DNA from: a virus
IMG/VR virus record: IMGVR_UViG_3300030107_004359
Span: 1 to 48,290 of that record
Reading direction: 5' to 3' (one strand)
DNA length: 48,290 nt
Positions 3,348-26,155 of the stretch are shown one piece after another. The position numbers and the translations under genes were made by a program. Position 1 is the stretch's first letter, and each line of letters begins with the position of its first letter. The notes beneath the pieces are model-generated. The model saw only the letters and a list, made by a program, of their open reading frames with translations, was not told the origin of the DNA and ran no database searches.

Positions 3348-4664
3348 ATGTCAAATATGTTGAATCTAAATAGTGTCGGCTACGCAAGAGTTAGCACTAA
3401 GTCTGGAGAGCAGCTTTCTTCTCTAGAAACACAAAAAAACAGGCTAAAGGCTGTGGGTGTTGATAAAGTTTATTGCGATGTTGAGAGTGGAAGATCCAAT
3501 GATAGAAAGGCTTTTAACGAATTGCTCCAATTAATCGATAAAAAAGCGATAAAAGAAATCGTAGTTACTAGGTACGACAGACTTGGAAGAGATGCCACGT
3601 TCATCGATGCCGCACTTGTCTTAGCGTCAAAAAAGAACGTGGTAATTAGAACAATAGATACAGGAATAGTTAACGTAGAGACTCCAGCAGGGTTCCTAAT
3701 GTCTCGGATCTCAACCAGTCTTGCCGAGATGGAATCTAAAATGTTGAGCTTAAGGGTTAAAAAAGCTCTTGAGCAAAAGTGGAAAGATGGGGATATGCCA
3801 AGATCAAGGTTGCCCTGGGGTTATCACAAAGTTGAGAGAGAAGGTAAAAAGTGTGTAGAACTACATCCAATAGAAGGTGAAAGAGCAAAAGAACTACTTT
3901 TTGAACTAAAAGAGAACGGGTATCGTCTTAACGTCACTTTAAAGAAATTTAAGGACATACCTTTAAGCACACCATCAAGTGTTAGAGCTTGGATTGCCAA
4001 CCCCGTTCTTAGGGGTGGAATGGGTTTTGAAAAATACGCTACTTATAAATACAAAAGGGTGGTCTGGGGATTACATGAACCTTTAATAATGCATGAAGAT
4101 TGGTTTGTTATACAAAGACTATTAGATTTGAATAAGAGTACTTGGGGCAGAAGTGCAGGTGTAAAACCAAAGCTACTCACAGGCATTTGTTATTGCGGTG
4201 AATGTAATCACAAGTTGGGGTATGCAAGTAGGAAAGCCAAAACACACCAATTAAACTTACGTTGCAACACATTTAAGTGCAGCAATTACATGAAATTAGT
4301 AAAGGAGTCTTTGATTACAAAAGCTATTAACAAGTCTTTAGCGAAGCGGTCAGGAGAACTAGCAAGTCTGACTAAAGAGGAACCCCCAGAAGTTATTAAG
4401 GTTAGGAGTGAAATAGATATGTTGAGTAAGCTAGACGACCCGGATTTAAGAGAAGCAATCACAAGAAAAAAGGAAAAGCTAGCGAGTTTATTGCTCGTTA
4501 AATCACCAGTTATGAAAGAACGTGCTCAGATGATGGCAAGCAGTGATTTTTGGGATCATGCTGCCTCTCTTCCCGATAACCGTCTCCGAGAGATATATCT
4601 TGAGTTTGTTCTGAAGGCGGTTGCGAATCCAAAACAGGTGACTCAGGTTTCTCTGCGGATTTAG
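3348..4664 (+). CDS. int: Large serine recombinase (phage integrase)
   Basis: A 438-residue site-specific recombinase of the resolvase/invertase superfamily. Residues 10-150 are the catalytic domain: YARVSTKSGEQ with nucleophile Ser16, then T-R-Y-D-R-L-G-R-D carrying the catalytic arginines, and a long helix (AEMESKMLSLRVKKAL). A recombinase domain follows (about 155-270). A zinc ribbon is at about 280-315 with paired cysteines (CYCGEC ... RCNTFKCS), then a coiled-coil segment near 340-380. This order is typical of large serine integrases, including the XisF-type cyanobacterial recombinases, which join attP to attB without high-energy cofactors. It supports a temperate lifestyle. The inverted repeat at 3232-3298 may be its attP. 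Confidence 0.92.
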   Translation: MSNMLNLNSVGYARVSTKSGEQLSSLETQKNRLKAVGVDKVYCDVESGRSNDRKAFNELLQLIDKKAIKEIVVTRYDRLGRDATFIDAALVLASKKNVVIRTIDTGIVNVETPAGFLMSRISTSLAEMESKMLSLRVKKALEQKWKDGDMPRSRLPWGYHKVEREGKKCVELHPIEGERAKELLFELKENGYRLNVTLKKFKDIPLSTPSSVRAWIANPVLRGGMGFEKYATYKYKRVVWGLHEPLIMHEDWFVIQRLLDLNKSTWGRSAGVKPKLLTGICYCGECNHKLGYASRKAKTHQLNLRCNTFKCSNYMKLVKESLITKAINKSLAKRSGELASLTKEEPPEVIKVRSEIDMLSKLDDPDLREAITRKKEKLASLLLVKSPVMKERAQMMASSDFWDHAASLPDNRLREIYLEFVLKAVANPKQVTQVSLRI

Positions 4665-24822: not shown

Positions 24823-25026
24823 ATGGCGGCGACGTTTCAAAACTACAGTGGCGGTACCTTTTTAGGTGATCTAGTCACACGTCCGGAATTTCTGGGCTAT
24901 GTCCAAGAGGACATTTATAACGGTTGTAAATGGATTCAATCCGGTGCAGTCACAAGAAACTCAGCTTTAGATGCTAAAGCGGGTGGAATATCTGTCGAAG
25001 TACCATTTTTTAAACCGATCACTCCT
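24823..25026 (+). CDS. Major capsid protein, exon 1
   Basis: Exon 1 encodes residues 1-68 of the coat protein and ends at ...KPITP. The frame would otherwise stop at 25051-25053 after eight intron-encoded codons. The last codon, CCT at 25024-25026, ends in the U that forms the conserved U-G pair of intron P1. Joined to 25292-26155, the full protein has 355 residues, normal for a HK97-fold-type or related coat. Continuity is excellent: ITP joins TEERIESNNTWGTSS. The scaffold gene is 26 bp upstream. Confidence 0.85.
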
Positions 25027-25291
25027 TATCTTCGTAGGGCTTTCTGCTGGTAACAGCAGGAATGGAGAGGGTGAATTGCTGGAAGCCCCCTATAACTGGG
25101 TAATCAGCAGCCAAGCTAGACCACAATCTAGAAGGTTCAACGACTAACTCCCGACAGGCAACTGAGTAACGGAGACAAGAGTGCCCTCCACAGAACTAGG
25201 TTTTACCAAAGCTGTGAAGATATAGTCTGATCAACACCGATAGCAAAGGTGTTGAACCGAGAGATAAAGAGCTTTCGGGATAACAAAAATG
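25027..25291 (+). ncRNA. Group I self-splicing intron (265 nt, probably IA subgroup, no endonuclease)
   Basis: P1 is CCTTAT/GTAGGG across the 5' splice site, with the conserved U-G pair at 25026/27. P2 is CTGCTG-GTAA-CAGCAG (25044-25059). A CTAGA/TCTAG stem is at 25116-25131. P7 is GACTA (25142-25146) with TAGTC (25223-25227), in the hallmark context GGTTCAACGACTA and AAGATATAGTCTGA. P8 is CACAG/CTGTG (25189-25216). P9 is CAACACC/GGTGTTG (25232-25254). The intron ends with G 25291. The 3' exon's GAAG can pair with CTTC in the P1 loop (P10). The extra sequence between P7 and P8 resembles P7.1/7.2 of subgroup IA. No ORF fits inside. Confidence 0.93.
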
Positions 25292-26155
25292 ACAGAAGAG
25301 CGAATCGAGTCAAATAACACATGGGGTACAAGCTCTAACGGTTATCTAACTCCACAGAAAGTACAGGCAACAAACCAAATCATGCCAATCATTAGGCGTG
25401 GTTTTTCATATGCCGTAGATGACATCAGTAAGTTAGGTACTGGATCAGACCCAATGGGAGCAATCCGCAACCAACTTTCCAAAGCAATCAACAAGCATCG
25501 TACAGCTACTTTAATCAACCAGCTTGACGGTATTTTTGCGAGTGCTTTATCAGGTAACGCGACTGACGTATCTAGTTCTACAACTTCTACAAACACCAAT
25601 TATTTAACATTAACCAATGTTATTAAAGCCAAGAATTTACTTGGTGAGCGTGGTGGTGAGTTAAGCACAATCGCTATGCATAGCGATGTATATGCTTACT
25701 TGCAAGAAGTAGGAGCATTGCAGTTCTCAGCTAACAACTTAGCGAGTGGTACCAGTATCCAATGGGGAGGCGGCGGCCTTGGAGTATCTAATACTCAAGT
25801 AGCTACTTTCATGGGATTAAGTGTTGTTGTTGATGATTTATTAGCACCAACTCTCAACTCAGGTGGTTCTGATCAATATCCAATTTACTTACTCGGTGCG
25901 GGTGCAATTAATGAGGGAGTCCAACAGGACTTGAAGGTTGAATTTGATAGAAACATCTTGTCTCTTCAAGATGTATTAGCTCTTAGTTACCACTACGGAT
26001 TCCATTTAGGTGGAACTAAGTATGGTGGTTCAGCTAACCCAACCAACGCAACTCTAGCTACAAGTGGTTCATGGACCCTTGCTTATACAGAGCGTAAGAT
26101 GGTTGATGCTGTGAAGCTAACTGTTAATACTCCTTATTCAACAAATAAGGCTTAA
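25292..26155 (+). CDS. Major capsid protein, exon 2
   Basis: Exon 2 supplies residues 69-355 (287 codons). It begins TEERIESNNTWGTSSNGYLTPQKVQATNQIMPIIRRGFSYAVDDISKLGTGSDPMGAIRNQLSKAI, a pattern typical of coat proteins of this size, with an N-terminal region, spine helix and beta-rich C-terminal domain. The ATG at 25289 lies at the intron's last three bases and is probably not used as a start: without splicing this part would lack the N-terminal 68 residues. It assembles the icosahedral head. Confidence 0.88.
   Translation, partial: TEERIESNNTWGTSSNGYLTPQKVQATNQIMPIIRRGFSYAVDDISKLGTGSDPMGAIRNQLSKAINKHRTATLINQLDGIFASALSGNATDVSSSTTSTNTNYLTLTNVIKAKNLLGERGGELSTIAMHSDVYAYLQEVGALQFSANNLASGTSIQWGGGGLGVSNTQVATFMGLSVVVDDLLAPTLNSGGSDQYPIYLLGAGAINEGVQQDLKVEFDRNILSLQDVLALSYHYGFHLGGTKYGGSANPTNATLATSGSWTLAYTERKMVDAVKLTVNTPYSTNKA

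Follow-up and report, generated by a model that had tools for sequence, protein, structure and literature searches.

Group I introns in phage capsid genes are already known: an 819-bp intron interrupts the major capsid gene of mycobacteriophage LittleE (JF937101), as evidenced by RT-PCR and N-terminal sequencing, and a capsid intron of the lactococcal phage Tuc2009 is cited in the same work (PMC3706429). A 265-bp phage intron without an endonuclease is known as well, from the minor tail protein gene of mycobacteriophage BAKA (PMC3706429, JF937090). The locus described here lies in a 48,290-nt stretch of viral DNA (the window), in which positions 25027-25291 of the + strand are a 265-nt insert matching the group I intron family RF00028, with a group IA layout. 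The insert resembles the LittleE intron, which is efficiently spliced in vivo (PMC3706429), in being a group I intron of a major capsid gene; however, LittleE is an unrelated phage, and its intron carries an endonuclease gene and falls on a different branch (RF00028 30.7 bits, matching that of the window over just 37 nt). The BAKA intron has the same length, likewise lacks an endonuclease and also resides in a virion gene, but this is a tail gene, and the match to the window intron again extends over just 37 nt. The psbA intron of Synechococcus phage S-PM2 (AY329638; RF00028 87.8 bits) is another group I intron of a cyanophage without an internal endonuclease, 79% identical to that of the window over 85 nt in the P4-P6 region; it differs in splitting a photosynthesis gene. 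Introns of the same lineage occur in S-EIV1-like capsid genes (contigs L095, L150, and L212), those at residue 234 in L095 and L211 being sister to the window intron, but the capsid protein is unrelated and the gene is interrupted at many sites.

The preliminary description of this DNA had set a coat-gene intron apart from the known cases, a view that the published introns of LittleE and Tuc2009 overturn. What is new is the presence of homologous introns at a second site, 21 nt upstream, and of their kin in the unrelated S-EIV1-like capsid gene. A literature search covering mainly open-access journals turned up no report of introns in the S-EIV1-like capsid gene or of several introns in one cyanophage capsid gene.

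The intron and its split capsid gene

RF00028 was the sole RNA match at gathering level in the window (cmscan, Rfam), at 25017-25252 with 62.2 bits, above the curated threshold of 50 (E 1.7e-13); the intron had been assigned to group I from the letters alone, and the covariance model bears this out. Its boundaries had also been placed exactly to the base. Removal of 25027-25291 joins ...KPITP seamlessly to TEERIE... in a frame of 355 amino acids; unspliced translation ends after 76 codons. Exon 1 (24823-25026, +) comprises 68 codons, confirming a split after residue 68, and aligns to intronless homologues up to 25026, and exon 2 (25292-26155, +) adds 287 codons and the stop in the spliced frame. 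The final intron base, the omega-G, is at 25291. In four related contigs (L002, L003, L004, and L007), BLASTN segments stop at window position 25026 and resume at 25292, giving an exact empty site, which in L004 reads ACTCCT before and ACAGAAG after the splice point. The comparison with coat homologues thus finds them without the 265 nt, including IMG/VR relatives of up to 95% protein identity (L004). Among 86 sampled homologous loci, 78 read through both intron sites and three contain introns (L005, L013, and L024); five were uninformative. At the level of sequence, the position of the intron, its family and the consistency of its splice sites are established.

The intron is closed by stops in all three forward frames, and its longest stop-free frame on either strand is 56 codons. 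It is not a composite mobile intron with a homing endonuclease ORF inside, in agreement with the preliminary description; an endonuclease encoded on either strand of the intron is ruled out by these frame lengths, and a protein-coding insert by the forward stops together with the absence from homologues. Because stops close all three frames, capsid supply would depend on splicing. It should be noted that the last three intron bases form an ATG (25289-25291) in frame with exon 2, which is why gene finders report a separate 288-aa ORF for this exon.

The spliced product is a major capsid protein, as had been proposed: it matches the Gp13-like major capsid family of Pfam (PF20036, E 1.9e-11, 44.3 bits with a cut-off of 26.4) and the major head protein family phrog_247 of PHROGs (E 3e-51). 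The gene stands in a head module ordered as terminase, portal, head morphogenesis and capsid, followed by tail genes including the tape measure protein. The isolate relatives of the capsid protein are the cyanophages S-2L, MED4-184, and KBS-S-2A, and those of the large terminase subunit (TerL) are MED4-184, S-H1, and KBS-S-2A, with 33-41% identity for capsid and terminase; in line with the earlier suggestion, the phage is likely a cyanophage, judging from these two proteins. The window showed neither a photosynthesis gene nor a tRNA, and a scan of genome contigs for a host yielded no cyanobacterial prophage, the matches being one of 54% in a Rhodobacterales-binned contig and two distant ones. 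A large serine recombinase with Resolvase/Recombinase domains is encoded at 3348-4664, which suggests that this phage, with its cyanosiphovirus-like head genes, is temperate or once was.

Secondary structure and covariation

The elements named in the preliminary description (the U.G pair of P1, the GNRA loop of P2, the P7 strands GACUA/UAGUC, P8, P9, and the terminal G) are all present, and we mapped the remaining helices, all on the + strand, with an alignment of 17 related introns built from sequence only. In P1 (25024-25039), the exon CCU and the intron UA pair with UAGGG (IGS, G37-G39), and the wobble pair U25026.G25037 marks the 5' splice site; this U.G guide pair of the 5' exon and the terminal intron G (G25291) are features of group I introns, and both are found in the related introns too. 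P2 is a hairpin with a GUAA loop (25041-25062) that contains an in-frame TAA stop at 25051-25053. P3 pairs 25067-25071 with 25184-25188, with double-sided changes in four of five pairs. The alignment also supports P4 (25077-25082/25104-25109), P5 (25085-25088/25098-25101), P6 (25110-25112/25134-25136), P6a (25116-25120/25127-25131), P8 (25189-25193/25212-25216) and two hairpins of the P9 region (25232-25254 and 25257-25278). P7, the guanosine-binding helix (25142-25146/25223-25227), is invariant in 17/17 introns. The extra stems P7.1 (25148-25151/25171-25174) and P7.2 (25155-25157/25162-25164) have double-sided changes in all seven of their pairs; they are those of group IA, an assignment that follows the layout of these stems and not a subgroup-specific model.

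The RNAalifold consensus of the 17 introns has 49 pairs, 36 of them with double-sided changes; adding the P7 pseudoknot (36/54) completes a P3-P8 core with the P7/P3 pseudoknot. With the pseudoknot included, 95.0% of cells pair versus 73.5% in shuffles (0/500 as good), and cells with double changes number 184 versus 50; shifting the partner by one column lowers the pairing to 39-47%. For the window intron by itself, the MFE z-score is -3.3, with one of 200 shuffles equally good. P1 pairs better with the intron's own 5' exon (mean 5.1 bp) than with exchanged exons (3.2 bp; 14 introns, 0/2000 permutations). The window P1 is the weakest and shortest of the set, with three exon pairs and 2-3 intronic pairs, which counts against our preferred reading, and P10 with the 3' exon, judged by eye, is imperfect in the window and good at several sites, among them that of L013 and residues 134 of L095 and 147 of L150. 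The upstream frame reaches a stop before the core in all 18 introns examined, at offset 0-33, and at offset 96 in one intron with an extended 5' part; the two other frames do so in roughly 58% of cases. Reviews describe in-frame stops as typical where a group I intron interrupts a protein gene (PMC3984707, PMC3073962), so the early stop is a confirmation and no novelty.

We regard it as highly probable, on this comparative evidence, that an endonuclease-free catalytic group IA intron is spliced out of a cyanosiphovirus-like major capsid gene and belongs to a laterally spreading lineage. The transcribed RNA would fold into the P3-P8 core, with P7 binding exogenous guanosine; cleavage would follow U25026 at the U.G pair of P1, and joining of the exons at G25291 would release the 265-nt intron and restore the 355-aa coat protein, while the in-frame stop in P2 would halt ribosomes before the core. 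The catalytic activity of the window intron and its splicing in vivo are predictions from this structure, and so is the need for splicing in capsid supply.

Related introns at other sites

Common descent of all introns in this gene from a single site is ruled out. In two contigs with a homologous capsid gene, L013 and L024, introns from the lineage of the window intron (70-74% identity) sit 21 nt upstream of its site, after codon 61, with the junctions GTGCCT/TTTTTC and GTGCCT/TTCTTT, and Rfam confirms both (RF00028 73.1 and 67.1 bits). At both sites of the gene the splice point follows CCU and the guide has GGG. Each of the codon-61 introns (L013 2723-2979 and L024 2327-2597) opens with an in-frame TAA.

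At least 120 stretches of viral contigs matched in a scan for the intron's core motif. Among the matches listed, the top-scoring one after the same-site copy was in L095 (83% over 230 nt), where the host gene is 72% identical to that of Synechococcus phage S-EIVl, which is intronless, and belongs to the major head family phrog_1357; we refer to it as the S-EIV1-like capsid gene. Pfam gave no match to its protein, and PHROGs did. BLASTP found no significant similarity between the window and S-EIV1-like capsid proteins, and common ancestry of the two was rejected on this ground as the source of their shared introns.

Mapping the S-EIV1 protein onto the fetched loci recovered the gene in 88, split in 20; these loci comprise the 80 top-ranked matches of an L095 exon together with the motif hits, not a random sample, so that 20/88 is no population frequency. 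Group I introns confirmed by Rfam occupy four places in L095, six in L150, and five in L212. The splice sites lie near S-EIV1 residues 7-20, 39, 50, 89, 134, 141, 147, 216, 234, 240, and 284, a count (about ten) that is approximate because some were placed by hand, the automatic search having given no result for five gaps. Many of these introns are 235-290 nt long, and several exceed 900 nt. The sites vary between the contigs with split genes (L150 3637-6305, L212 98-2615, and L095 3035-5274). In the S-EIVl record itself (KJ410740 60784-62010; L287 2411-3637), the first half of the capsid gene is annotated as an opposite-strand CDS and only the last part as a forward one; the annotation apparently overlooks the intact capsid ORF.

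In the intron tree, the window and L005 copies group with those at residue 234 in L095 and L211 (support 99/97), the latter being longer (371 nt) and having less certain ends; the introns after codon 61 in the homologous gene fall outside this group, and the deep branches are poorly resolved.

Movement of the lineage and its hosts

The intron of L005, at the same site as that of the window, is 97.5% identical to it over the 236 nt visible in this truncated contig, which lacks exon 1 and the initial 30 nt of the intron. Exon 2 is 88.0% identical between the two (86% over its first 100 nt); that of L005 is nearer to the intronless L004 (92.6%) and L006 (93.2%) than to the window. Given this discordance between intron and exon, the intron appears to have moved laterally between phages; strong constraint on it could have contributed to the high identity. 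It would have reached the capsid gene of at least one close relative without the flanking exon, and its kin would have settled at other sites of the window-type gene and in the S-EIV1-like capsid gene.

As to the route of spread, which we infer, a free-standing homing endonuclease acting in trans, as at the psbA intron site of cyanophages (collaborative homing, reviewed in PMC3984707), is a possible if somewhat doubtful explanation. Transfer of the intron without its flanking exon 2 would fit such a process, and some related capsid introns (L110, L141, and L244) are of ~1 kb, not 250 nt, with room for an endonuclease judged by length alone. Against it, no endonuclease domain was found by Pfam in the 64 window ORFs, a set without opposite-strand overlapping and very small ORFs, and the window site is unlike that of its nearest relative, S-EIV1-like residue 234. 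Reverse splicing into new sites, with subsequent reverse transcription and recombination, seems unlikely to us. Related introns at two locations are a circumstantial argument for it (PMC3984707), and here they occupy two sites of one gene, separated by 21 nt, and about ten of another; the CCU and GGG common to both sites of the window-type gene also fit. Against it, the guides differ at most sites, so that drift or adaptation would have to come afterward, no reverse transcriptase was identified, and the route lacks direct evidence in phages. That the insert is a degenerate relic, with the gene inactivated or divided into two proteins, the second starting at the ATG at 25289-25291, is very improbable: the closed intron frames and the 288-aa ORF would suit it, but all core helices are intact with P7 invariant, both exons show high conservation against homologues lacking the intron (95% of amino acids to L004), the 68 N-terminal residues are retained in every homologue, and no Shine-Dalgarno-like run precedes this ATG at normal spacing.

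The lateral spread that we favor would concern a lineage frequent in phage capsid genes. Coat genes had been placed outside the usual hosts of phage introns; this does not hold among the 101 viral contigs, from the matches listed, in which a usable ORF lies upstream of the core motif, where the commonest flanking family is a major head family (phrog_1328, eight members). Further major head families have 4, 3, 2, 2, 1, and 1 members, which may overlap and are not to be summed as independent. Other flanking genes encode RNA polymerase, tail sheath, scaffold, portal, tape measure, ribonucleotide reductase, and PsbA. With relatives of the window intron at about ten places in the S-EIV1-like gene, up to six at once, cyanophage capsid genes look like a favored home for such introns. 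Since capsid genes need very high expression, an intron residing there must splice efficiently.

For gene callers, and for viral surveys that rely on the capsid, genes split in this way are a pitfall and will be misread. With slightly less than even confidence, we propose that cyanophage capsid genes are a preferred habitat in which an endonuclease-free lineage colonizes new sites time and again, both inside a gene and across unrelated capsid genes, so that the coat protein, the most abundant one of the virion, would need several sequential splicings, with guide and P10 readapting at each site. Minimal related introns at many sites in two capsid genes, with empty alleles at hand, are material for studying movement without an endonuclease and the adaptation of guides, and the same set bears on the tolerance of phages for a late gene with several introns.
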